Source: Kiritimatiellales bacterium
GTDB lineage: Bacteria; Verrucomicrobiota; Kiritimatiellia; Kiritimatiellales; Pontiellaceae
NCBI GenBank assembly: GCA_003252225.1
Contig: QKFE01000261.1
Location: 1-33,076, forward strand
DNA: 33,076 nt
Direction of reading: 5' to 3'
Part shown: positions 335-33,076 of the stretch, in pieces
How the letters are laid out: each line of letters opens with the position of its first letter
How positions within the stretch are numbered: the first letter of the stretch is position 1
Translations under genes and position numbers: made by a program
Notes under the pieces: generated by a model
What the model saw: only the letters and a program-made list of their open reading frames with translations
What the model was told of the DNA's origin: nothing
The model's database searches: none

Positions 335-3220
335 ATGAAAGGAATAAAGGTAGTGAGACTCTGTGCCGCCATAATTTTATCCATGCTTTGCGAAGCTGCC
401 GGTGCTGCCACTGTTTTTGAATCCGATGGTTCTTCTATGGCTGGGTGGAAAGAGCAATGGCATTCTACGACAAGCGCAGATGTTGTTGCCCCTGTCTGGC
501 AGGCTGTCGGCGGGAAAATCAAGGGACAGGCATTTTATAGCGACTATCTCAGCGAAGATCTAGGCGGCACGATGTTTTATACCAACGGCTTCAGGCTGAA
601 GGTCGGCGAAGTGGCGACGTTGACTATGGATTTTGAAGGGAAGGGGATTCCTGCTCCCGATAATCTGAATCACTGGTGGTTTTCGTTTGGCTTCCGCACG
701 GGCGGGGATGAGCCGTGGATTGACGGCGATGTAGTGGCTTATGCTTCGATGCGCACCGGGGCCGGGATCAACCTGCCTAATGGGTTTGAGCTGTGGAATG
801 CGTGGCGCGATTCGTGGACAAAGCCTTATCCGCGCTGTGAGTTCCGCTCCGATGATACTTACCATTCGGATCCCATTACGGTGACCTATTCTGTTCCGCG
901 AACCGAAGCCGGCTTCGGTCCGTCAACCCTCATCATTTCCAACCACACGACCGGTATCCGATGTATGGCGACAAGTCTTTCGGAGGCGTCGGATAACACC
1001 GTTTCAATAGAGAGCAACCTCTATTTCTACTGCCAGATTCCGGCCCGGTTCGACTGGGCAGATGGGCTGTCGAGTCTGGATACATCGGTCAGCCTCAGCA
1101 ATGTCAAATTGACCGTGGAGGAAATAGGGAAACTTCCATCAGCGATGCCGGAGACAGAGGTGTCCGGAGCGCCGGTTCTGAGTGCATCTGAACCGTATGC
1201 AAGAAGCATTATGGAAATTAAGCAGCTTTCCAACGAGGCTGCCGGGAAACAGTATTCGGCCCGTATTTCCGGGCAGGTGCTGAATCTCCATCCGAGGCAG
1301 AGCCGGGTTTTTATTCACGACGGAACGGCCGGGTTGTATGTTGAACTCGACCGGCGCGTATTTGAATACAAGGGTTTGCGGGCGGGCAGCGAAGTCCAGT
1401 TTGATGGGGTAACGCTGGTTGGCGGATATTCCCCGATTGCTTACACCACCAACCTTACGGTGACGGGCTGGAGCCCGCTGCCGCGGGCGCACCGACTGGA
1501 TCGGACGGTTTTCAGGGCAACAAGCGTGGATGTGAACTGGGTGGAGGTTGAAGGGCGACCGATCGCGATGGAGTATGTGAAGTCCTATAACCATTATCTG
1601 ATCACGATGGAGGTGCTTGATACAACGGTTGAGGTTTATGTGCCCTATCAGTCCGGCGCGTTTGAAATGATGAAACCGTATATGTTTCAGGATGTGACGG
1701 TTCAGGGCGTTCTCGGCACAACCGCAAACCAGCACCGGCAGATGACGGGACGTATTCTTTACGTGAACTCCATTGATGATTTCCGGTTGAAGCCGGAGAT
1801 AACCGGCATAGTTCCCCGCCCTTTTCTCATGCACGAACTCATGCAGTATGGAAAAGCGAGCACCGGGCTGGTTAAAACGATGGGGACGGTGGTCAGCGCA
1901 TCGCCGGATACGCTGTATCTTCGGGGTGAAAAGGCAAATTTGAAGGCCTTGATTTTTCACGAAAAGGAACTCAGCCCGGGGGATTCCGTCGAGCTGGTCG
2001 GGTATGTCGATGTGCAGCCGGTCAGCCCATCCTTCCGTACGGTTTCCGTTCGCCGGATTGGCGAAGGCCCGCCGCCGGAGCCGATATATATTCAGATCGA
2101 AGAGAATGAAATTGATCCGGACTGGAATTATGATCTGGTCAGTCTGGATGCCGAGTTCGTTCATCTGGAAAAGGGTTTTTCGCCAAACGAAGCCGACGTT
2201 TCTGAGGGCAAAGTTACGGGCGGGGCGACAGATGTTTTATGGTGCCGTTCCGGGGAACGGTTGTTTGAGGCCAGATGGCCGGAAGGTATCCCAGCTCTCT
2301 CGGGAATACGACCGGGCAGTCGTATTCGTTTAACGGGCATTTGCCATGTTTCAAAAACGAAGAACCCCCGCCTTGATGCGATGGCCGGTTCACTCTGGCT
2401 GGAACTGCTCGACGAAAATTCACTCACCGTTATTCGCCGGGCATCCTGGTGGACTGCCGGTCGTCTGCTTTGGACATTGGGGTTCACCGTTTCGCTGACG
2501 CTCTTTTTCCTGATTTGGGCGATTGTTCTGCGGAAAGTGGTTGTACGGCAGACGCAGACCATCGGCAAACAGATCGAACGCGAAACTACACTGAATGAAC
2601 GCCAGCGGATTGCCCGTGAACTGCACGATACATTGGAGCAGAGTTTAACCGCCCTGATGCTTCAGCTGAAGCGGCTTAAAAGGAAGATTGAGGAGGAACT
2701 TCCGGCACAACTTGGAACGGTGGAAAAAGCGGAAAATATGCTCCAATTCTGCCGGGAGGAATCGCGCGCTTCCATACAGGATCTGCGCGGCGGGATTCTC
2801 GAAAAGATGGATCTGAAATCGGCGGTTGAAAAAAATATACTCCAATTGACCGAGGGTTCCGGTATCCAATTGTCGGTTGAAATGGAGGGGGAACCTTTGC
2901 GTCTGACCCTGTTTGCCGAACAGCAGCTGCTGCGCCTTGTTTCAGAGGCGGCAAGCAACGCGGTGCAGCACGCTTCGCCGGAAAAAATAGCTATCCAGTT
3001 CAGCTATTCGCCGGATCGCCTTGTGATTTCAGTCTGTGATGATGGCTGCGGTTTTGATCCTGCCATTGCTGAATCCTCCGGGCGTTTCGGTTTGCAGGGA
3101 ATGCACGAACGCGCCAACCGGCTTCACGGTAAACTGGAGATACAGAGTTCAGCGGGCGCAGGAACCCGGATAATCATCTCAATGCCGGTTAAGGCGTTTA
3201 TAAAGGAAGAGAGTTTATGA
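335..3220 (+). CDS. Sensor histidine kinase (HisKA_3/NarX-like) with signal sequence and large extracytoplasmic region
   Basis: H-box ERQRIARELHDTLEQSLTALMLQLKRL; ATPase motifs SEAASNAVQHASPEKI, VCDDGCGFDP, GRFGLQGMHERA; TM near WWTAGRLLWTLGFTVSLTLFFLIWAIVL; N-terminal signal-like sequence. ORF-track start at 329 is TTG; ATG is at 335. Confidence 0.9.
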   Translation: MKGIKVVRLCAAIILSMLCEAAGAATVFESDGSSMAGWKEQWHSTTSADVVAPVWQAVGGKIKGQAFYSDYLSEDLGGTMFYTNGFRLKVGEVATLTMDFEGKGIPAPDNLNHWWFSFGFRTGGDEPWIDGDVVAYASMRTGAGINLPNGFELWNAWRDSWTKPYPRCEFRSDDTYHSDPITVTYSVPRTEAGFGPSTLIISNHTTGIRCMATSLSEASDNTVSIESNLYFYCQIPARFDWADGLSSLDTSVSLSNVKLTVEEIGKLPSAMPETEVSGAPVLSASEPYARSIMEIKQLSNEAAGKQYSARISGQVLNLHPRQSRVFIHDGTAGLYVELDRRVFEYKGLRAGSEVQFDGVTLVGGYSPIAYTTNLTVTGWSPLPRAHRLDRTVFRATSVDVNWVEVEGRPIAMEYVKSYNHYLITMEVLDTTVEVYVPYQSGAFEMMKPYMFQDVTVQGVLGTTANQHRQMTGRILYVNSIDDFRLKPEITGIVPRPFLMHELMQYGKASTGLVKTMGTVVSASPDTLYLRGEKANLKALIFHEKELSPGDSVELVGYVDVQPVSPSFRTVSVRRIGEGPPPEPIYIQIEENEIDPDWNYDLVSLDAEFVHLEKGFSPNEADVSEGKVTGGATDVLWCRSGERLFEARWPEGIPALSGIRPGSRIRLTGICHVSKTKNPRLDAMAGSLWLELLDENSLTVIRRASWWTAGRLLWTLGFTVSLTLFFLIWAIVLRKVVVRQTQTIGKQIERETTLNERQRIARELHDTLEQSLTALMLQLKRLKRKIEEELPAQLGTVEKAENMLQFCREESRASIQDLRGGILEKMDLKSAVEKNILQLTEGSGIQLSVEMEGEPLRLTLFAEQQLLRLVSEAASNAVQHASPEKIAIQFSYSPDRLVISVCDDGCGFDPAIAESSGRFGLQGMHERANRLHGKLEIQSSAGAGTRIIISMPVKAFIKEESL

Positions 3221-3849
3221 GTGATAAAATCAGCGTTCTGGTTGTGGATGACAACACCCTTTTGCGCGTGGGTCTTCGCGATACGATTGAAGATGAGATC
3301 GATATGGTTGTGGTCGGCGAAGCGGCTAACGGGATGGAGGCCTTTGAAAAATATAAAGCGCTCCTGCCGGATGTGGTGACCATGGATTACCGTATGCCGG
3401 TTGAAGACGGGCTGAAAGCTTCGGCGCATATTCTCTCGGAATTTCCCGATGCACTGATTGTTTTTCTTTCGATCTATGAAGGGGAGGAGGATATCTGGAA
3501 TGCGTGGCAGACCGGTGTCCGTGCATACCTCTCTAAAACCGATGATCCCGAAAGCGTGGTTGAGGCGATCCGGGAAGTCGCAAACGGAAACAGTTATTTC
3601 CCGGCCGGAATCGCGAAAAAACTCGAAGCACGGAAAAACAAGGATTCACTGACGCCAAGGGAGCTGCAGGTGCTTGAACTGATTGTGAATGGCCATAGCA
3701 ATAAAGACATCATGGCGGCGCTCGATCTTTCCGCCAGTACGGTTCGGGTTCACGTTTCAAACATACTCGAAAAAATGGGCGTACTCGATCGGACGCAGGC
3801 CGCTGTTCAGGCCGTCAAACAGGGTATTGTCCACATCGATGCATTCTAA
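3217..3849 (+). CDS. NarL/FixJ-family response regulator (REC + LuxR HTH)
   Basis: VLVVDDNTLLRVGLRD receiver, DVVTMDYRMP phospho-Asp region, SLTPRELQVLELIVNGHSNKDIMAALDLSASTVRVHVSNILEKMGV LuxR HTH; ATGA overlap with the kinase. Confidence 0.95.
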   Translation: MSDKISVLVVDDNTLLRVGLRDTIEDEIDMVVVGEAANGMEAFEKYKALLPDVVTMDYRMPVEDGLKASAHILSEFPDALIVFLSIYEGEEDIWNAWQTGVRAYLSKTDDPESVVEAIREVANGNSYFPAGIAKKLEARKNKDSLTPRELQVLELIVNGHSNKDIMAALDLSASTVRVHVSNILEKMGVLDRTQAAVQAVKQGIVHIDAF

Positions 3850-3854
3850 TTAAT

Positions 3855-4183
3855 ATCCTCCGGTTGTTGAACTCCCTGACCTCATCAAAGACGGCGAGGG
3901 TGTTTTCGGCGGGGACTTCGGGCAGGATGTTGTGGATGGTGTTAAAAATGAAGCCGCCGCCGGGGGCGAATATTTCACACCGCTGAAGTACATGTTTACG
4001 GACTTCATCAGGTGTGGCTTTGTTTAAAACCGATGCTGTATCGCATCCACCGCCCCAGAAAGTGATTTGATCGCCGAACTCCGCCTTCAGTTTTTCCGGT
4101 TCCATTTCAACGCAGTTGGTTTGTATCGGGTTGATAATATCATAACCGGCTTCGATGAGGTCAGGCATAATTCGATGGATCAA
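3855..4183 (-). pseudogene. C-terminal remnant of URO-D-family (corrinoid) methyltransferase
   Basis: IHRIMPDLIEAGYDIINPIQTNCVEMEPEKLKAEFGDQITFWGGGCDTASVLNKATPDEVRKHVLQRCEIFAPGGGFIFNTIHNILPEVPAENTLAVFDEVREF matches the C-terminal third of MtaA/MtbA-like URO-D methyltransferases; no 5' two-thirds present. Confidence 0.75.
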
Positions 4184-4410
4184 TGCGGGAAACGGATCAA
4201 TCGATCACTGAAATCGGCTTCCTCTGCGGTTATGCAGGCAGTCAGTATTTTGCCGAAACATTTAAAAAATCCGCCCGGATGACCCCTTCGGAATACCGCC
4301 GAAGTGTTTCCGAACTGGATGCGATTTTGCGGTCAAACTGGAGCCATCCCGAGGCCCGTTCGGTTGATGACGAACACCGCCGCGCAAACCTGCTCAACCG
4401 GAAGGTTTGA
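4183..4410 (+). pseudogene. C-terminal remnant of AraC-family regulator (second HTH)
   Basis: RETDQSITEIGFLCGYAGSQYFAETFKKSARMTPSEYRRS is the distal half of an AraC HTH domain; no upstream coding sequence in frame. Confidence 0.75.
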
Positions 4411-5194
4411 TCCGGACAATGCGCTCGGAATGGTCGGCGGCAATCGTGCAGCCCGGCGGAACGGTTAAGAAGTTATCCTCATCCCAATCCCCGTTGAGCA
4501 GCTTCTGAATAAGCGCGAGATCGCCGGCGATTTTTTCAAAGCGCCATTTTTTTTCTTCCGCTTCATCTTTGGCGATCTGTTCAAAGCTTCCGTCCGGTTC
4601 AACGCCCATTTCAATGAAGGTGATTTTGGAATAGTTTTTTTCTGTGTTGCACAGCTCTTCCCACAGGAATTCAGCGTTATCTTCACCATATTGCGCAACC
4701 AGCTCTTCGTACGTCATATCCATGCCCATCTGGTTCGGAATGGAAAGCTGTTTCAGCTCCTCGGCAATTTCATCGCGTTCAATCCAGCCCGTCGTTTTAA
4801 AGTAGGTTCCGGGGTTGGCGTGGAAATAATCGTTGTATCTTTTCCGGCTGCCTAAAAACAGGGTGATGCAGTCGTGCGCCCGCGGAAGAATAAGCTGAAC
4901 ATCGCGCGCCTTCAGGCCATCGAGTCCGTTGTTGCAAAGGCCGTACCCGAGAATAATCGCGTCGTAGTTTCCCTTTGAGGCTTCATCCACCTGCGCCTGC
5001 AGCCGTTTGAGCATTTCATCCGTCGGAATATCGTGCAGTCCCTTCTGCATAAATTCGACCTCAATTTCGTGGGGCGACTGCTCCAAGAGAAACCCGATCT
5101 CTCGAAAAAAAATCTCACAGCTGATCAACTTCAGCTTTAACCGCGAATAACCGCGAATAGACGCTAATTCTTGATTGTTGTTATTCGTGTTCAT
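4394..5194 (-). CDS. DUF1638 domain-containing protein
   Basis: LKLISCEIFFREIGFLLEQSPHEIEVEFMQKGLHD...YDAIILGYGLCNNGLDGL...PRAHDCITLFLGSRKRYNDYF is a DUF1638-type sequence. The first ~17 residues are encoded by a dispersed repeat, so the start is uncertain. Confidence 0.85.
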   Translation of the reverse strand: MNTNNNNQELASIRGYSRLKLKLISCEIFFREIGFLLEQSPHEIEVEFMQKGLHDIPTDEMLKRLQAQVDEASKGNYDAIILGYGLCNNGLDGLKARDVQLILPRAHDCITLFLGSRKRYNDYFHANPGTYFKTTGWIERDEIAEELKQLSIPNQMGMDMTYEELVAQYGEDNAEFLWEELCNTEKNYSKITFIEMGVEPDGSFEQIAKDEAEEKKWRFEKIAGDLALIQKLLNGDWDEDNFLTVPPGCTIAADHSERIVRIKPSG

Positions 5195-5212
5195 TCGTAT
5201 TGATTGGTGGTT
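5141..5212. repeat. Dispersed ATTCGTG-family intergenic repeat, copy 2
   Basis: accgcgaataaccgcgaatagacgctaattc...ttattcgtgttcattcgtattgattggtggt; imperfect palindrome with words shared with ~150-195 and 9590-9652. Confidence 0.6.
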
Positions 5213-6849
5213 CAGATTATAACACTCGGGAAGTCTTCTTCTTCGAGGTTCGGGATGGCGAGGGCTTCCTGAAAATAACTGGTGAAGTGTGCCGTTTTAT
5301 TGAGGGTAATCACTTTTGGTTTATGAATGATATCGAGATAAGCCTGTTTGGTTGATTGGTCGAGCAGGGCAAGCGCTGCGCCGGCCAGTGATCCGTTTCC
5401 GATCACTTCGTATTTTTCAATCGGAACATCGGGCAGAAGACCGATGGTAATGGCGTTTTTAATATCGATGTGTTTGGCAAAGCCGCCGGCCAGAATGATG
5501 TGGTCGATTTCGTGAACGGTTTTACCCAATTCGGTCAGCAGAGTTTTCAGCCCGGAATAAATCGCGGCCTTTGCTTTCAGGATTTCGGCGATGTCGTGTT
5601 CGGTAACGGTGATGGATTCACCGGTCGCCGAGAGTTCCGCCGCAACCAGCATGCAGGCGTGCATTCCTTTCACGTTTTCGTAGCGGTCTTTTTCCTTTAA
5701 CAGGTCAACATCGTAGCGGCCGAACGCATTGATCAGCCCGCATTTGAAACCGTCGGCAATAAAATCGATAATGGCCGATCCGCAAAGGCCCATCGGGCTG
5801 GGATCGCCGATTACGGTCAGTTCAAAGTCGAGATTCCGGTCATATTTAACGGTATCAATCGCGCGGCTGGCCGCGCGTGCGCCGTGCAGCAAACCGGCGC
5901 CTTCAAAGGCCGGGCCGGCGGCGGTTGCGCAGGCGGTCATTTCTCCGTTCAGCGATGCCACCATTTCGCCGTTGGTGCCGATGTCAATCAGCAGAGTCAG
6001 CCCGTCTCTCTTCCATAGATTGCTGACATGCAGGTCGGAAGTGATATCGCCGCCGACATAGCCGGAAATCGACGGCACATCTTCAATCCGGGCGTCCGGA
6101 TTGACGTCAATTTTAAGTTCCCGGGCGGTGCTGCTGAAAGAGTTGCTGACCGGTTTGAACGGAATGACGCCGATCGTTTCCGGTGAGACGCCGAAGAAAA
6201 TGTGCATCATCACGGTGTTGCCGGAAAGGGTAACGTGAACAATGTCGTTTTTATCCGTTCCGGTTCCGTCGCACAGCTTGTGTATTAAAGGGTTCAGCGT
6301 GTGTTCAATCACCAGTTCCTGCAACGCTTCAAGGTTTCCTTCAATGCTGCAGAGGGAAATCCGCGAAACAACATCGTCGGCTTTTAAGATCTGCTGATTG
6401 TACAGCGATTCGCGGCTCATGATTTTGCCGCTTTGCAGATCAATCAAGGCGGCAACAACCGTTGTGGTTCCAATATCGACCGCAACGCCGAAGCCGGTTT
6501 TAAATTTCGGGTTGAAATGGTGTTCGGGAATATCCATTTCATCGGCAATGCGGGCGCCGGCAAAGGAGATGACTGATGAACGCGGCAGGAAAATTTCAGC
6601 GCAGTCGCCAATCACATAGGTCTGACAGGAGAGTACTTCTCGGCGCTGTTCGGGCATCACTTCAATCGTTTCGGTGAATACGCGGTAACACCCTTCGCCC
6701 AGCAGAACATTGCAGCTTGCGCACGAACCGCGGCCGCCGCATTTGGCATCAATATGCCACCCGGCTTTGCGCGCCAGCTCCATCACCGATGATTTGCCAT
6801 CGTTTTCAAGCACGACCATTTTGCCATCGAAGTTAATTTTGATTGCCAT
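5212..6849 (-). CDS. ASKHA-domain [2Fe-2S] protein, RACo-like reductive activator of corrinoid proteins (DUF4445)
   Basis: N-terminal ferredoxin-like CGGRGSCASC...C; ASKHA motifs VAVDIGTTTVVAALIDL, LLIDIGTNGEMV, ILAGGFAKHI; SD gagga upstream. Confidence 0.9.
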   Translation of the reverse strand: MAIKINFDGKMVVLENDGKSSVMELARKAGWHIDAKCGGRGSCASCNVLLGEGCYRVFTETIEVMPEQRREVLSCQTYVIGDCAEIFLPRSSVISFAGARIADEMDIPEHHFNPKFKTGFGVAVDIGTTTVVAALIDLQSGKIMSRESLYNQQILKADDVVSRISLCSIEGNLEALQELVIEHTLNPLIHKLCDGTGTDKNDIVHVTLSGNTVMMHIFFGVSPETIGVIPFKPVSNSFSSTARELKIDVNPDARIEDVPSISGYVGGDITSDLHVSNLWKRDGLTLLIDIGTNGEMVASLNGEMTACATAAGPAFEGAGLLHGARAASRAIDTVKYDRNLDFELTVIGDPSPMGLCGSAIIDFIADGFKCGLINAFGRYDVDLLKEKDRYENVKGMHACMLVAAELSATGESITVTEHDIAEILKAKAAIYSGLKTLLTELGKTVHEIDHIILAGGFAKHIDIKNAITIGLLPDVPIEKYEVIGNGSLAGAALALLDQSTKQAYLDIIHKPKVITLNKTAHFTSYFQEALAIPNLEEEDFPSVII

Positions 6850-6924
6850 TCTATCCTCGTTTTTATTCCGCGCGGCGGCTCGGAAATTATTCAGGCTATT
6901 TTTCTGCGCGATATAAAATGAATC

Positions 6925-6953
6925 AAAAAAGCCGCCGCAATGCGACGGCTTTT
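6925..6953. terminator. Bidirectional hairpin terminator between corrinoid-protein and RACo genes
   Basis: AAAAAAGCCGCCGCAATGCGACGGCTTTT. Confidence 0.65.
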
Positions 6954-6975
6954 CAGTGCGGATTGCCGGAATAAA

Positions 6976-7602
6976 TTAAGCGGCAATACCGAGTGCGATT
7001 TTGGTCGCTTTGACGCAGGTGTTTGCGTCATCGGAATATCCGTCAGCACCGATTTCGTCAGCATATTCCTGCGTCACCGGCGCGCCGCCGATCAGGATTT
7101 TCGCGCCGGAACCCGCCAGCCCTTTTACCACTTCTTTCATGTAGGGCATGGTGGTGGTCAGCAGGGCGCTGAGCAGAACCACTTTAGCACCGTTTTCGAC
7201 GGCTTCTTTGTACTTATCCACATCGCAGTCAACGCCGAGATCCATCACTTCAAAGCCGGCGCCTTTGAGCATCATTGCGCAGAGGTTTTTGCCGATATCA
7301 TGAAGGTCGCCTTTAACGGTTCCGATGGCCACTTTGCCGATCGGTTCGTGTCCGGCTTCCTGCAGCAGCGGATCGAGCAGATCCAGACCGGCCTGCATTG
7401 CGCGGGCGGCAATCAGCATTTCCGGAACATACGCTTCGTTGCGCGAAAAACGGTCGCCGATTTCCGCCATCGCCGGAACCATCGAATCCATCAGTATGCT
7501 TTCGACGTTTGTGCCGCCATCAATTTCCTGCTGAACAATTTCAGCCACATCTTTACGCTTCCCCTTAAGAACCGCTTCGTACAGTGCTTCATTTTTTGCC
7601 AT
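6976..7602 (-). CDS. Corrinoid (B12-binding) methyltransferase protein, MtbC/MtmC-like
   Basis: Helical cap (MLIAARAMQAGLDLL) plus GTVKGDLHDIGKN (DxHxxG cobalamin ligand motif), IGGAPVTQEYADEIGADGYSDDA; SD tggaggataactgac-ATG. Confidence 0.95.
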   Translation of the reverse strand: MAKNEALYEAVLKGKRKDVAEIVQQEIDGGTNVESILMDSMVPAMAEIGDRFSRNEAYVPEMLIAARAMQAGLDLLDPLLQEAGHEPIGKVAIGTVKGDLHDIGKNLCAMMLKGAGFEVMDLGVDCDVDKYKEAVENGAKVVLLSALLTTTMPYMKEVVKGLAGSGAKILIGGAPVTQEYADEIGADGYSDDANTCVKATKIALGIAA

Positions 7603-7703
7603 GTCAGTTATCCTCCATTAGGTATTTATCCAGTGTCCATGTTTACCTATTCAGGTCGATTTGGAATAGAATAAAAAAGTTGGTGTTTAAAACGATCTTG
7701 CTG

Positions 7704-7766
7704 AAAAAATGGGGCTTGATTGATTGGGGTTTCTGAAAAAAACCTATATTTATCAATTCAAGCCCC
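7704..7766 (-). terminator. Long stem-loop with U-tract downstream of fhs
   Basis: Plus-strand arms ggggcttgattgat (7711-7724) and atcaattcaagcccc (7752-7766); on the minus strand the second arm is followed by ATTTTTT. Confidence 0.65.
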
Positions 7767-7798
7767 TCTTTTACGGGTGTTTCTATAGGGGGTTATCT

Positions 7799-9562
7799 TT
7801 AGAACAATCCTGTCACCTTGCCGGTTTTAACATCGACATCGATCCGGCGGAATCCGGGATCTGATCCGGTGCCGGGGAGCAGTTTGATATCGCCCGCAAC
7901 CGGAACCACAAAACCGGCGCCTCTATAAATCAGTACATCGCGAATCGGCAGCGTCCATCCTTTCGGGCGGCCTTTCAGGGTTGGATCGTGTGAAAGACTG
8001 AGGTGGGTTTTCACCATGCACATGCCCATTTTTGAAGCTTCGGGGTCGTTTTGGAATCGGGTGATTTTCTTTTCCGCAACATCGGACCATTCAACGCCGT
8101 CGGCTCCATAAAGCTCGACGGCAATTTTTTCGACGCGGGCTTTCAACGGCAGTTCGAGGTCGTAAAGGAATCTGAACTGGTTTTCCTCTTCGCAGGCAGC
8201 CACGACAGCTTCGGCCAGTTCGCGCGCGCCTTCACCGCCGGCGAGCCAGTGTTGCGATACGGCGCAGCGGGCTCCGTTTGCTTCGGCGATTTTTCGAACC
8301 AGATTATGTTCCGCTTCGGTGTCGGTGTAAAATCCGTTGATGCAGACAACCGGATTGGCGCCGCTTTTCTTCACCGTTTCGATGTGTGCGATCAGGTTTT
8401 CGCAGCCTTTTTCCAGCAGGGTGAGTTCCTCCTGTGTGTAGGCTGGATCGAGCGGTTTTCCGGGTTTCACTTCGGGGCCGCCGCCGTGCATTTTCAGTGC
8501 GCGAACGGTGGCAACAATAACGACGGCATCCGGCTTCAGTCCGGAATAGCGGCATTTCAGGTTCCAGAATTTTTCGAAGCCGATATCCGCCGCAAACCCG
8601 CTTTCTGTCACAAGATAATCGCCCATCCGGATGCCGAGCATATCGGCAATTACGGAGTTCTGTCCAATGGCGATATTGGCAAACGGCCCGGCATGAACAA
8701 GCACCGGATTCCCTTCGATGGTTTGAACCAGATTCGGATTCAGCGCATTCACCATAATGGCGGTCATTGCGCCGTCGACTTCGAGGTCGGCGGTAGTGAC
8801 TTCTTCGCCGGAGCGGCTGTAGGCCACAACCATTTTTCCGATTCGTTCGCGCATATCGGCCAAGCTGTTCGCGACGGCGAGAATGGCCATCAGTTCGCTC
8901 GAAACGGTAATCTGAAATCCGGATTCCATTTCATAGCCGTCCATTTTGCCGCCTTTTCCGATGGTAATGTTACGCAGCGCCTGCGCGCAGAAATCCATCG
9001 CCCATTTCAGCTGTACGCGTTCGGGGTCAATATCCAGCCGTTTGAGGCCGATCTGCGCCAGCCGTTCATCGTCATAATTGCTTTCGTGCTGCATCCGGGC
9101 GGTGAGCGCAACCATACAGAGATTGTGTGCATTCGTGATGGCGTCAATGTCTCCGGTTAAGCCGAGCGAAAACGGGGCGAGGGGAATGCACTGCGCCAGA
9201 CCGCCGCCGGCTGCGGAACCTTTAATGTTGAATGTCGGGCCGCCGCTGGGTTGGCGGATGGCGCCGACCGGTTTTTTGCCGAGAACGCCGAGGCCTTCAA
9301 CGAGTCCCATTGTGGTGGTTGTTTTGCCTTCGCCGAGCGGGGTGGGAGTGATGGCCGTAACGTCGACATATTTTCCCGGCTTGACGTTTTTGATGCGAGC
9401 CCATGTTTTTGTGTAGTCAATTTTTCCGACGGCTTTTCCCATCGGGATCAGTTCGTCTTCCAGCAGTCCGAGTTTGGCTGCAATTTCCTGAATCGGTTTA
9501 ATGTTTTCTTCGGCGGCTTCTGCAATCTGCCAGTCCGCCATTTTGGTGGGGTCTAAATTCAT
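7799..9562 (-). CDS. fhs: Formate--tetrahydrofolate ligase
   Basis: [17 protein letters not shown]-loop, [52 protein letters not shown] before ATG at 9562 (ORF-track start at 9604 is upstream). Confidence 0.97.
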
Positions 9563-9589
9563 TGTTATCTCCGCATTAATAAAATTTTC

Positions 9590-9652
9590 ACCGCAAATTT
9601 TCACGAATCGTCACGAATAGGAAACCTATTAGTGAGAATTGGTGCGGATTAG
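9590..9652. repeat. Dispersed ATTCGTG-family palindromic repeat, copy 3
   Basis: Core TCACGAATAGG-AAA-CCTATTAGTGA (10 of 11 bp paired), flanked by ccgcaaattttc / gaattggtgcgg. Confidence 0.65.
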
Positions 9653-10500
9653 TGGTTTGCCTTTTCTGTAGTTTGTTTTCTCAAATAGAGTATCCAGTAA
9701 ATCGTGCCGACAAAGATTGCGCCGCCAACCATGTTTCCGATGGTTACGGGAATGAGGTTTTTAACGATGAATCCGGGCACAGTGAGGTTGGAAAGATCGG
9801 CGCCGTTTAATTGCGAAACAATTTCCGGGTTGGTTTTCAGCAGCAGGCCGGCGGGTATGAAATACATGTTCGCGATCGAGTGCTCAAAACCCATTGCCAC
9901 GAAAGCGGTGATCGGGAAAATGATCGCCAGGATTTTGTCGGTGACCGACCGTGCGCTGTAGCAGAGCCAGATCGCCAGACAGACGAGAATATTGCAAAGC
10001 ATGCCGCTGCTCAGCGCCTGCATAAAAGTGAGGTTCACTTTCGCGTTGGCGATTTTCAACGCGGTGACGCCGACGGCTCCGCCGTTGTTTGTCCAGTGGC
10101 CGCTGAAATAGACCAGCATCACAATACACATTGATCCGGCAAAGTTACCGAGAAATACCCGCAACCAGCTTTGCAGCATCTGACGTATTTTAAATTTCCG
10201 ACTGAAGCAGCCCATCACCATCAGCGTGTCGCCGGTAAAGAGGTCGGCCCCGGCGATGATCACGAGAATCAGCCCGAGCGAAAAGGTCAGGCCGCCGATC
10301 AGCTTGGTGAAGCCGACGCCCATTGAGCTGTCGTGAATAACGTGAGTATAAAGGGCGGCGCCGAATGCAACGAATGAACCGGCCTGTACGGCAAGGAAAA
10401 AGGCGCTGATCAAATCGCGGTTTGCTTTGCGGATGGCCGAGGCCTCCGCCCGCTTGGCCATTTCCGCCGGCATATAAGCATCTGTTATTGTTTCTTCCAT
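9649..10500 (-). CDS. focA: Formate/nitrite transporter family channel (FocA-like)
   Basis: Multi-TM FNT protein; AGADLFTGDTLMVM, LRVFLGNFAGSMCIVMLVYFSGH, VAMGFEHSIANMYFIPAGLL, NLIPVTIGNMVGGAIFVG; SD GGGGGAAAATA before ATG at 10500. Confidence 0.92.
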   Translation of the reverse strand: MEETITDAYMPAEMAKRAEASAIRKANRDLISAFFLAVQAGSFVAFGAALYTHVIHDSSMGVGFTKLIGGLTFSLGLILVIIAGADLFTGDTLMVMGCFSRKFKIRQMLQSWLRVFLGNFAGSMCIVMLVYFSGHWTNNGGAVGVTALKIANAKVNLTFMQALSSGMLCNILVCLAIWLCYSARSVTDKILAIIFPITAFVAMGFEHSIANMYFIPAGLLLKTNPEIVSQLNGADLSNLTVPGFIVKNLIPVTIGNMVGGAIFVGTIYWILYLRKQTTEKANH

Positions 10501-10520
10501 TATTTTCCCCCGGGTCAAAA

Positions 10521-12953
10521 TCATTTCCGCAGACTGTCGCAGAATTCGGTCATCAGTTCGATGGCATCGTTGGCTTTATCCATATCGCCGTCCATTGCGG
10601 CGTAGGCTTCGACCAGTTTAACCAGTTCCGGGTCGGCCGGTGTGTTGCCGAATTTGTGAGCCGCGTTTACGATACCGGCATCGAGGCCGTAACGCATGCC
10701 GACTTCAACATAGGCCCGCATGATACCGATTTTGCGTCCCGGCAAATCGCGGCAGCAGTTACTTATTCCCATTGAAAAATGCACCCCCTTCATTTCGGGT
10801 TTTGATTTGATGGCTTTAATGGTTTCAAACGCGCGGTACGTGTATCCGGCCTGTCCGGGCATCATCGGCATATCAATGGCTAAAGGAAATGCGGTGGCAT
10901 CAAAAATGACGGCATCATTTTCAAACCCGTATTCCATGGCTTTGGTATGAATCTGCGCGGCCAGTTTCACCAGATCCTCGACGGTGTCTTTTCCTGCGCC
11001 GGCGGCATCTTCATTCATCAGCAGGCCGATGAAGTTGTAATCAAACTCATTTTTAAGCGGCATCATTACATCCGCAGTGTGTGCTTTGATGGAGTTGATG
11101 AGGGGCTTTTTAACGGCGTCGGCGGTGTTGTACCACTCTTTGAGGCCGGCGATTAGAACCTTATCATCGGAGGAATCGATACAGACCGGAACGGTGCCGC
11201 CCCATTTGCGGACAAGCTTGACGTATTCAACCATAATGTCGACGGCGGTCTGCGGATTGGATTCGCCGAAGGCATCGACGTTGACGGCGATGTAATCGGC
11301 ACCGGCTTCCGCCTGGCTTTCGATGAGGGCGCGGACATAGTCGAGCTGCGGGCTGTCGTTGCGGTATGCGCCTTCGCCGAGTTTGTGCAGTTCGCGCATA
11401 ACTTTTCCGTGTTTGGGAATTGAAGCGTGAATTTCTTCACCGATGTTGATGATTGCATTTTTCATGGTGTGATCCTTTCCGAATAGATAGTTAAGAATTG
11501 AAGAGGTGTGTTCAAGCGATGGATTGCGGGGATTATTGATACTTCGGCGCAACCGGGCCAGACCGTCTTTCTCGGCTTTTGCCGCCCGGTAAATCTGTTC
11601 GCCGCGGCAGATGACGCCGTCTTCATTGCCGCAGGTTCCATCGACTTTGGCATCGCCGCACGGCGCATTGGCCAGCCCTTTGGCGCAGCCGCCCATCGTG
11701 CAGAATCCGAAGTTTTCAAAGAGGTAGCAGTCGCCGCACTCTTCGCATTCAAAGGCCGCGTGTTTCACGGCCCGCTCCATTGCAAAGAAAGCTTTCGCCG
11801 CCGCGCCGTCCGGTTTCTTTTTGGCGCCGGCCAGTTCCATGGTTTTGCTGAAAACGTGGAACCCTTTATGGTCGGGATCGAGCAGGGTTTTGTGCATGAA
11901 ATTAAACCAGCGCTGATGCAGCGTTTGTTTACCCGGTTCGAGCGGGGTGCGGCCGCCTTCTTCATCATAAAGGTAGAAGGTTTGTTCCGGCGGCCAGTAG
12001 AGGTTGGCCTGATATTTAATCCAGTCTTCACCGATTTCCGCCGCACGGTTCAGTATGTTGCAGAAGGTTTCATAGTCGTGCACACCGCCGATATCGACAC
12101 CGTCATACCCGAGAGTTTTAAACATCGCCACCTGTTGGGCGGCGCGTTCGAGATGCTCATCGAAGTTTTCGGAGTTGAGTTTTTCCAGCAGTTTGTCGCT
12201 GACATAACAGCCGGGCAGTTTGCCGGAATTCATCAGCCGCGGGGCTGCATTGGTGGTGGTCAGAAAATAGACGTTTCCGATGACGGGCACATTGAGTTCG
12301 GCCTCTTCCATGTAAAACTTCAGTTCGAGCGCTTTCTTCCAGTCCCAGCCTACCTGTGTAATCAGAAACCGCGCGCCGCTTGCGACCTTCTTTTCCATTT
12401 TGAAATACTGCTGAAGCTGGGAGGCTTCGGTGTATTTAAACGGCGAAACCGCCGCGCCCGCAAAAATCTGCTCCACCTCTTCGGGCCGGTTTCCGTCGGC
12501 CAGCAGCTCTTTCCGGTTCATTCGGGCGATCATTTGCAGCAGGCCGACCGCTTCGAGTTCAAAAACGCCTTTCGCCGAAACCGGCTTGTCGCCGGTCAGG
12601 GCCAAAACACTCCGGATTCCGCGCTGTTTGTATCCGACCAATATCGAGTGCAGCGCCGACTTGTTGTGGTCTTTGCAGCTGAGGTGGGGGATGACATCCA
12701 CTTGATCAAGCAGGCCGGTCGGAACCAGCTGGGCGAGCACATCCGACGGGTCGAGGTTGGAAACTCCGCCCGGATTCTGGGGGAGGGCGATGGCGGCAAA
12801 GTTGAATCCGGACGGTAAATCCGCCCCGCCGGTTTCGGCGTGTTTTTCGAGGAAATGCCGGATGGGATCAATTTTATAGCCGCGGCCGGACATCAGTTCG
12901 GCGACTACGGTGAATCCCTTTTCCTCGTTCAGTATGTTTTTCAGCCCGCTCAT
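10521..12953 (-). CDS. metF: Fused methylenetetrahydrofolate reductase (MetF) + MetV-like Cys-rich domain + pterin-binding methyltetrahydrofolate:corrinoid methyltransferase
   Basis: MetF part (SVLALTGDKP, NVPVIGNVYFLT); MTHFR_C/MetV Cys motif CEECGDCYLFENFGFCTMGGCAKGLANAPCG; DHPS-like MT part (INIGEEIHASIPKHGKVM, ESQAEAGADYIAVNVDAFGES, PVCIDSSDDKVLIAGL, GISNCCRDLPGRK). Confidence 0.9.
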   Translation of the reverse strand: MSGLKNILNEEKGFTVVAELMSGRGYKIDPIRHFLEKHAETGGADLPSGFNFAAIALPQNPGGVSNLDPSDVLAQLVPTGLLDQVDVIPHLSCKDHNKSALHSILVGYKQRGIRSVLALTGDKPVSAKGVFELEAVGLLQMIARMNRKELLADGNRPEEVEQIFAGAAVSPFKYTEASQLQQYFKMEKKVASGARFLITQVGWDWKKALELKFYMEEAELNVPVIGNVYFLTTTNAAPRLMNSGKLPGCYVSDKLLEKLNSENFDEHLERAAQQVAMFKTLGYDGVDIGGVHDYETFCNILNRAAEIGEDWIKYQANLYWPPEQTFYLYDEEGGRTPLEPGKQTLHQRWFNFMHKTLLDPDHKGFHVFSKTMELAGAKKKPDGAAAKAFFAMERAVKHAAFECEECGDCYLFENFGFCTMGGCAKGLANAPCGDAKVDGTCGNEDGVICRGEQIYRAAKAEKDGLARLRRSINNPRNPSLEHTSSILNYLFGKDHTMKNAIINIGEEIHASIPKHGKVMRELHKLGEGAYRNDSPQLDYVRALIESQAEAGADYIAVNVDAFGESNPQTAVDIMVEYVKLVRKWGGTVPVCIDSSDDKVLIAGLKEWYNTADAVKKPLINSIKAHTADVMMPLKNEFDYNFIGLLMNEDAAGAGKDTVEDLVKLAAQIHTKAMEYGFENDAVIFDATAFPLAIDMPMMPGQAGYTYRAFETIKAIKSKPEMKGVHFSMGISNCCRDLPGRKIGIMRAYVEVGMRYGLDAGIVNAAHKFGNTPADPELVKLVEAYAAMDGDMDKANDAIELMTEFCDSLRK

Positions 12954-13068: not shown

Positions 13069-13104
13069 AATAGCGCACTTGGAGGGGAATTTTTGGAGGT
13101 GTTT

Positions 13105-14316
13105 ATGTCAATCTTGTCAAAAAGGTTGTTAAGTTCGGTGGCGCGGGATTACCGTAAATCGGTCGGTTTAACCATTTGTCTTGTTGGCCCTGACGGGCGG
13201 ATTATTGATCCGGAATCAACCCGGGCGGTGGAAAATCTTCCGTCGCTTTGCCACATGCGGCTGCACAACTTAAACGAAGCGGCGCGGTGGGGAGAGCCGC
13301 AGGTCTTCTTTATTGCGCCCGGAATTATGAGCTGGATTATTCCGCTGGTTGACCGCACTGAATTGAAGGGCGGTCTTTGCGGCGGAAATATTCTGGTGGA
13401 GGACGATCAGCAGTCGGTCATTGCATCGGTGAACTATTTTGTCGGCGAAGGCGCAAAGCGGAAAGAGGCGCAGGCTTTTGTGGAAAAGCTCAGTTCGTTT
13501 GAACAGGGCAATGTCCGGAAAGCCGCTGACCAGCTGTATGAAATTTTTTACCAGTACAGCGGCTGGAATCCGCTGCTGTTGAAACGCAACCGCGATCAGA
13601 TGCACCAGCAGCGGCAGATTGCCGAAGAGATTCACCAAAGAAAAGTGGAGCAGAACCGGGCTTATCCGTACGACGACGAACGCATTCTGCTTTCACTGAT
13701 CCGCGTGGGCGACCGTTCCGGCGCGCGGAAAATGTTCAATAAAATGCTGGCCGCGATGTTTCTGTATTCGCCGAAGCCGGTGGTGGTGCGCGCGCGCGCC
13801 ATTGAAATGATGGGCTATCTCGTGCGTACCGCGGTGGAAGACAGCCCGCTTTCGGAGCCGCTGCTCGAACGGCATATGACCTGGATTGAGCAGATTGTGG
13901 AAACGCGCGATTTTGACGACCTGTGCAACGTGCTGCGCGATGCGCTCGACGATTTCATGAACAGTATTTTTCTTCAGGGGGTAAATCCGGTCAGTCCCGC
14001 AGTCAGTAAAGCGCTGGATTATATCGCCGCAAATTATACCGAGCAAATTTCGCTCGAACAGATTGCCGAGGCCGCCGGACTGAGTACGTTCCGCATTGCC
14101 CATTTATTGAAAGAGGCGACCGGGAAAACCGCGCTGCAGAACATCCACTATCTGCGGATTCAGGACGCCCGCCGACTGCTGGAACACAGCGATATGTCGT
14201 GCACGGATATCGCGTACGAAACCGGATTCGGTGATCAGTCCTATTTCATCAAGCAGTTCCGCAAATGGATGGGGATTACACCGGCCAAATACCGCAAAAC
14301 CGCAAAGGCACAATAA
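13105..14316 (+). CDS. AraC-family regulator with N-terminal PocR-type sensory domain
   Basis: PocR-like region ARDYRKSVGLTICLVGPDGRIIDPE...GIMSWIIPLVDRTELKGGLCGG; AraC HTH ISLEQIAEAAGLSTFRIAHLLKEATGKTALQNIHYLRIQDARRLLEHSDMSCTDIAYETGFGDQSYFIKQFRKWMGITPAKYR; SD TGGAGG before ATG at 13105. Confidence 0.92.
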   Translation: MSILSKRLLSSVARDYRKSVGLTICLVGPDGRIIDPESTRAVENLPSLCHMRLHNLNEAARWGEPQVFFIAPGIMSWIIPLVDRTELKGGLCGGNILVEDDQQSVIASVNYFVGEGAKRKEAQAFVEKLSSFEQGNVRKAADQLYEIFYQYSGWNPLLLKRNRDQMHQQRQIAEEIHQRKVEQNRAYPYDDERILLSLIRVGDRSGARKMFNKMLAAMFLYSPKPVVVRARAIEMMGYLVRTAVEDSPLSEPLLERHMTWIEQIVETRDFDDLCNVLRDALDDFMNSIFLQGVNPVSPAVSKALDYIAANYTEQISLEQIAEAAGLSTFRIAHLLKEATGKTALQNIHYLRIQDARRLLEHSDMSCTDIAYETGFGDQSYFIKQFRKWMGITPAKYRKTAKAQ

Positions 14317-32521: not shown

Positions 32522-33076
32522 CTATTTCGACACTTCTTCGAGCGCGATTTGTGCCCACTCCCAAAGTCGTTGAGGCTGATAACGAACCGTGGAAATATCT
32601 TTCATGATGAATTCCATATTGGCACCCCGACCGATATCAAGCACGCGGCGGATTTCCGCGCGGGCGCGCTGCGGATGCCAGTTGTCCTCCGCCAGAATTG
32701 CCGGGCTGGGCTTGATCGAATAAACCATATCGGCGCCCAGTCCGTTCATCAGCTTTTCAACATTGCACCACGCGCTGGTTGAGACCTTCCGCAGGTTCGG
32801 AATGCGTTTCAAAATTTCAGCTTTATTGTGTAGCGGTTCGCAGCAGCCGTAATAGTTCACACCCCATCGCTCCATCCAGCGCATATCGTGCTCGAGCGCA
32901 AACTCCCAGTGCATATCGGGCGAAACCTCCGAAAAAATCTGCGCGTTGGAACAGCCCCACATTTCAGACGGCTTTACATGCGCCGGTTCATTTTCGAGAT
33001 TGGGCAGTGTTGAAATATAGCCGTAACCGCCGGAACCGACGCGCACATTCGAATTATCCAGCGAAAGCAGGTTCTG
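32522..33076 (-). CDS. URO-D superfamily (uroporphyrinogen decarboxylase-like) protein, C-terminal part, truncated by window end
   Basis: EFALEHDMRWMERWGVNYYGCCEPLHNKAEILKRIPNLRKVSTSAWCNVEKLMNGLGADMVYSIKPSPAILAEDNWHPQRARAEIRRVLDIGRGANMEFIMKDIST; reading frame appears to continue past the right edge. Confidence 0.6.
   Translation of the reverse strand, partial: QNLLSLDNSNVRVGSGGYGYISTLPNLENEPAHVKPSEMWGCSNAQIFSEVSPDMHWEFALEHDMRWMERWGVNYYGCCEPLHNKAEILKRIPNLRKVSTSAWCNVEKLMNGLGADMVYSIKPSPAILAEDNWHPQRARAEIRRVLDIGRGANMEFIMKDISTVRYQPQRLWEWAQIALEEVSK

Follow-up and report, generated by a model that had tools for sequence, protein, structure and literature searches.

Joined 3' remnants of a methyltransferase gene and an AraC-family regulator gene as the probable scar of an internal deletion in a Pontiella-type bacterium

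How did fragments of two genes on opposite strands come to stand back to back beside the C1 operon of an uncultured marine Pontiella-type bacterium? The window analysed here, a stretch of 33,076 nucleotides, is one whole contig (C189) of the source genome G000, whose assembly comprises 3.0 Mb in 373 contigs and is 85.7% complete. Near position 4183, homologies to URO-D methyltransferases on the minus strand and to AraC regulators on the plus strand begin back to back, an arrangement described in the initial annotation and borne out by the frames, the profiles and the orthologue alignments alike. The junction between them very probably marks where a single internal deletion removed about 4.1-4.3 kb from a methyl-transfer locus. 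Table 1 lists the features concerned.

Table 1. Features around the junction and in the adjoining C1 core (window coordinates).
Position	Strand	Feature	Basis
3217..3849	+	LuxR-type response regulator, complete, left neighbour	PF00072, PF00196
3860..4180	-	URO-D methyltransferase remnant, residues 307-413 of the 413-aa orthologue	Pfam, identity, orthologue alignment
4177..4184	+	GGATCAAT copy 1, spans the junction	exact match
4181..4183	.	Putative deletion junction, bases assignable to neither parent gene with certainty	codon alignment
4184..4410	+	AraC-family regulator remnant, last ~74 of 320 residues: second half of HTH_18 and tail	Pfam, orthologue alignment
4194..4201	+	GGATCAAT copy 2, within AraC coding homology (T-D-Q-S codons)	exact match, register
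4394..5140	-	DUF1638 gene, intact right flank, convergent with AraC and overlapping its end as in G027 and G008	PF07796
5212..6849	-	RACo-type corrinoid reactivase	PF14574, PF17651, Fer2; in 11 relatives
6976..7602	-	Corrinoid (B12-binding) protein	PF02310, PF02607; MtgC/MtbC-like by NCBIfam, below cut-off
7799..9604	-	Formate-tetrahydrofolate ligase	NF010032 above cut-off
9649..10524	-	Formate/nitrite-family transporter	TIGR00790 above cut-off
10521..12953	-	MTHFR-like and pterin-binding methyltransferase fusion	PF02219, PF12225, PF00809
13093..14316	+	PocR-type AraC regulator, divergent from the C1 core	PF10114, PF12833

The minus-strand open frame that carries the URO-D remnant occupies 3815-4183 and reads TTG(4183)-IHRIMPDLIEAGYD from its start. 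It covers only positions 252-346 of the 346 in the URO-D profile PF01208, which identifies it as a C-terminal piece, and scores 36.8 bits against 74-80.6 bits for the intact copies, all above the curated cut-off of 23.9 for the family. Orthologues of the remnant were searched for in 27 other genomes of the same genus, eight of which carry an intact one (79-85% identity to the remnant), the records including Pontiella sulfatireligans F21, Pontiellaceae bacterium B12227 and Kiritimatiellales MAGs. Each of the eight aligns over 411-413 residues of a 413-aa protein, and the remnant matches only the last 107 of these.

On the other strand, the frame from 4183, ATG(4183)-RETDQSITEIGF, aligns to residues 246-316 of a 320-aa AraC orthologue. 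It covers positions 43-79 of the 80 in the HTH_18 profile, against 1-79 in the intact orthologues. The sensor domain is wholly absent and the HTH domain partly kept, so that the remnant lacks the two HTH motifs (complete HTH_18) expected of an AraC/XylS protein; with the sensor domain and the first helix-turn-helix lost, it should not work.

The undisturbed arrangement was found in P. sulfatireligans F21 (G027) and in the Kiritimatiellales MAG SZUA-380 (G008), both of the same genus as the source, where the order is URO-D, rhaM-like gene, SSS symporter, divergent AraC, convergent DUF1638, RACo and corrinoid protein. Both truncated genes and the right flank have the same orientation there as in the window, in which the convergent AraC/DUF1638 overlap is retained at the right edge of the scar; DUF1638 is 74-76% identical, in the same order, in the loci L033 and L035. 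Measured from the homologue of window base 4180 to that of base 4189, the intervening sequence comes to 4,326 bp in G027 and 4,146 bp in G008; in the intact loci L033 and L035, 4.1-4.3 kb lies exactly between the break points, with the right flank in common and the left flank not. Shorter versions, of about 3.5 kb, occur in G010 and G001, the first of which lacks the rhaM-like gene. We infer an ancestor with the rhaM-like gene from G027, G008 and most of the others, and likewise the exact size of the deletion in the lineage of the window.

As G027 and G008 have all these genes in place and share the window's right flank, the junction is best read as an internal deletion. From right to left, the ancestral locus would have begun with a C1 core whose last gene was DUF1638; next would have come AraC, convergent with it, then the SSS symporter, divergent from AraC, and finally the rhaM-like gene and URO-D. 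The deletion would have taken AraC codons 1 to ~246, the AraC/symporter promoter region and URO-D codons 1-306, together with two complete genes, the symporter and the rhaM-like gene. The initial annotation had supposed that a divergent regulator/target pair lost both 5' parts and the promoter between them. The 3' parts of divergently oriented genes were indeed joined, and both genes are whole and divergent in G027 and G008; however, URO-D and AraC are not neighbours there, 4.1-4.3 kb and two genes lying between them, and the intergenic region that is gone is the one between AraC and its true divergent neighbour, the symporter. The further claim that a methyltransferase was lost next to the C1 module stands, as the enzyme is of the URO-D family and the intact loci share the right flank.

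The N-terminal part of URO-D, a close symporter and the N-terminal part of AraC were not found elsewhere in the G000 contigs. A move of these pieces to another place in G000 was rejected, since the search gave distant paralogues only. A rhaM homologue on contig C115 is 52% identical to that of the cassette and has neither URO-D nor a symporter beside it; this lone gene (L051 5991-6764, G000:C115) has no evident signal sequence. To the left of the scar, the closest relatives of the response regulator sit elsewhere in other genomes, and the left neighbour of URO-D in the window (HK-RR) differs from that of the relatives. The left boundary was therefore also rearranged at some time, and more than one rearrangement has touched the locus.

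The scar is a case of ordinary pseudogenisation and gene loss. As in pseudogenisation by internal deletion generally, truncated 3' remnants abut, the flanks are syntenic and the intermediate genes are gone; unlike in the usual examples, the cut truncated two divergently oriented genes and at the same time took out two more entirely.

Codon alignment of the junction, against eight intact loci on the URO-D side and five on the AraC side, extends the URO-D homology to the Ile307 codon (4178-4180) and starts the AraC homology at about 4184-4186. The two meet within 3-4 bases, and bases 4181-4183 are one or two changes off the expectation from either parent. A double truncation of this kind is far beyond chance. 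The 8-bp direct repeat reported at this place is also real: GGATCAAT is exact at 4177 and 4194 and has only one further plus-strand occurrence in the contig. It is the weaker observation, chosen after the fact, and 0.8% of the 35-bp stretches of the contig contain such a repeat. A short filler copied from the AraC end (GGAT of URO-D plus CAAT) might conceivably account for the repeat. The simplest reading is that the ends were joined almost blunt, probably through end-joining or through replication slippage that needed little or no homology.

An exact repeat at the junction invites the explanation, offered in the initial annotation, that the deletion arose by recombination between the two GGATCAAT copies. 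Such an event would leave a single copy, yet both remain, the second starting ~10 bp beyond the start of the AraC homology, and the intervening bases (ten) are AraC homology as well. The break regions of the intact loci share no word longer than 7 bp, and none in register. Deletion mediated by the short direct repeat was rejected on register and on the presence of two copies, and we give this route almost no credence. It is just as hard to believe that each short frame is a genuine small gene starting at the junction, one for a mini URO-D and the other for a mini HTH protein. They are open, with TTG and ATG starts at 4183, and little decayed, but full-length proteins genuinely starting here were looked for and none was found, all close orthologues being longer and complete; neither the zinc ligands nor the greater part of the barrel is left, one HTH is gone, and the starts overlap on opposite strands, each lying inside the upstream region of the other.

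A false join requires more attention. In an artefact of assembly, amplification or strain mixture, the cassette would be intact in the organism and the contig would either join its ends wrongly or represent a minority deletion variant. The genome is fragmented and incomplete, an intact copy could be unbinned, and both remnants are little decayed, the AraC remnant having no excess of changes. Against this, the junction contains no word of 14 or more bases repeated within the contig and has no second copy in the genome within 3 mismatches, so no k-mer collapse is apparent, and no other contig carries the missing parts. Where all eight intact copies agree, the URO-D remnant is changed at three sites, while each intact copy has at most one such change, and the remnant lacks the stop codon at the orthologous position, suggesting, as far as sequence can tell, lost constraint; dN/dS is saturated at silent sites and adds little beyond these counts of unique changes. 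So few changes would fit a recent deletion and are too few to count decisively against an artefact, which we regard as unlikely. At 3850-3866 the remnant runs on into the convergent response-regulator gene, possibly via a one-base frameshift. The changed left neighbour and the missing URO-D stop could also speak for several steps, in which the cassette decayed or suffered inversions or the insertion of an element and the ends met later, but the original orientation at both ends and the right-flank order are kept, the ends abut within 3-4 bases and no element remnant lies between them, which makes this course very improbable. One internal deletion thus remains the favoured account.

As to what was lost, the predicted structure of an intact URO-D orthologue has a mean pLDDT of 93.1, and its best structural neighbours are MtaA (4AY8/4AY7), followed by uroporphyrinogen decarboxylases; the Foldseek comparison with MtaA of Methanosarcina mazei (PDB 4AY7/4AY8) gave an E of 2e-14 and a TM by target of 0.69. 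A PDB search with the single sequence found no match and one with a profile found weak HemE and MtaA matches, the structure comparison alone being clear. His302 and Cys304, invariant in 18 homologues, align with the H-x-C of MtaA, so the motif is present in the intact orthologues; in MtaA, the residues at these positions are zinc ligands. The cut falls two residues beyond Cys304 and leaves the remnant without the predicted zinc ligands His302-x-Cys304. As these and most of the barrel are gone, the URO-D remnant should be inactive. For the third zinc position, judged from sequence only, His389 is invariant and no conserved Cys is found C-terminal of Cys304 in the family alignment.

The shared H-x-C motif, the structural fold match and the nearby corrinoid protein and reactivase liken the intact enzyme to the MtaA/CmuA-type corrinoid methyltransferases. 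It differs from MtaA in having only about 15% identity and, in the family alignment, an invariant His389 with no cysteine at the C-terminal ligand position, and its 43.6 bits against TIGR01463, with a cut-off of 235.4, place it outside that MtaA/CmuA subfamily. Type 1 mlp clusters also unite a URO-D-family methyltransferase, a corrinoid protein and a reactivase in one locus, but with His-Cys-Cys zinc sites and sulfur/selenium partners, whereas the invariant candidates here are His, Cys and His and the partners are a rhaM-like protein and a symporter (for the mlp clusters, Kountz and Balskus, PMC10418091). In this superfamily, a His-Cys-Cys zinc site characterises the S-methyltransferases, and one or both of its cysteines are missing in the O-methyltransferases (Kountz and Balskus, PMC10418091). 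The invariant candidate residues His302, Cys304 and His389 would, on sequence, lean towards an oxygen substrate.

The division of labour readable from the genes is that of the anaerobic corrinoid O-demethylase systems (methyltransferase I, corrinoid protein, reactivase, THF methyltransferase), with the difference that the partners point to methyl ethers of sugars and not of aryl compounds, and that formate-THF ligase and a formate transporter are in the operon. Five 2-O-methyl-L-fucosidase genes are predicted in P. sulfatireligans F21 (PMC7356697), which makes methylated deoxysugars plausible substrates. From its gene context, namely the rhaM-like neighbour and the symporter, the intact cassette is possibly a sugar methyl-ether demethylase tied to the conserved corrinoid/THF operon. 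A more specific proposal, offered tentatively and as something we would not yet bet on, is that the cassette encodes a corrinoid-dependent demethylase system, not described before, that acts on O-methylated (deoxy)sugars from algal polysaccharides and includes a probably exported rhaM-like protein; the methyl groups would pass via the adjacent corrinoid/THF operon to formate, and the strain would be a natural knockout of the entry step that kept the core. Literature searches found no paper on the URO-D/rhaM-like/SSS/AraC cassette.

Several observations concern the surroundings of this cassette. URO-D orthologues of 56-61% identity adjoin a rhaM-like gene in Akkermansiaceae and Anaerolineae MAGs (L070, L071, L072), so that the pair is conserved across phyla. 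Genes for membrane fatty-acid desaturases/hydroxylases, which usually use oxygen, recur beside intact cassettes (L033 5108-6109, L035 8450-9439, L032 5267-6187, L037 2693-4150, L053 6693-8138); some have a Rieske domain, the hosts are fermentative anaerobes, and such a pair is on contig C336 of G000. At 32522-33076 on the minus strand, the contig stops within a gene whose 431-aa relative in L037 (G018:C111) is 82% identical and lies some 2.3 kb upstream of the symporter-rhaM-URO-D cassette of that locus. Neither the fragment nor the intact L037 gene has a Pfam match; by eye, the contig-end gene resembles divergent URO-D-type proteins.

To the right of the scar, the window carries an operon of MTHFR/pterin fusion, formate transporter, FTHFS, corrinoid protein, RACo and DUF1638 (4394-12953) with the PocR-type regulator (13093-14316), with small variations among relatives. 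At 5140-5200, the conserved start of DUF1638 lies 18 codons inside the listed frame, whose beginning falls in a region with short repeats such as ACCGCGAATA. The conserved C1 operon suggests that methyl groups are oxidised to formate, and the regulator is conserved beside it, with a 76-83% identical neighbour in L055, L115, L118 and L119. The intact core, with this regulator of its own, would presumably serve other methyl donors. It is present in 11 relatives, comprising all eight with a close URO-D orthologue and three without (G016, G021, G026), and is therefore used without the URO-D enzyme elsewhere. Other URO-D-family genes of G000 are on C86, C96 and C336, with part of one on C371 and a strong HemE-like match on C92, while no MttB-type replacement methyltransferase was found in this genome. 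Given these other genes and the use of the core without the URO-D enzyme elsewhere, loss of core function is not implied; the deletion probably disables one methyl-harvesting route, and the loss of one substrate is the likelier phenotype.

This locus suggests that the corrinoid/THF core acts as a common hub and can persist when a single step removes a substrate-specific entry enzyme together with its transporter and regulator. The intact cassette is a more interesting lead than the scar, and is to be taken as a lead, not a result: it is uncharacterised and taxonomically widespread, and may demethylate sugars without oxygen, which, if true, would bear on the anaerobic breakdown of methylated algal polysaccharides.
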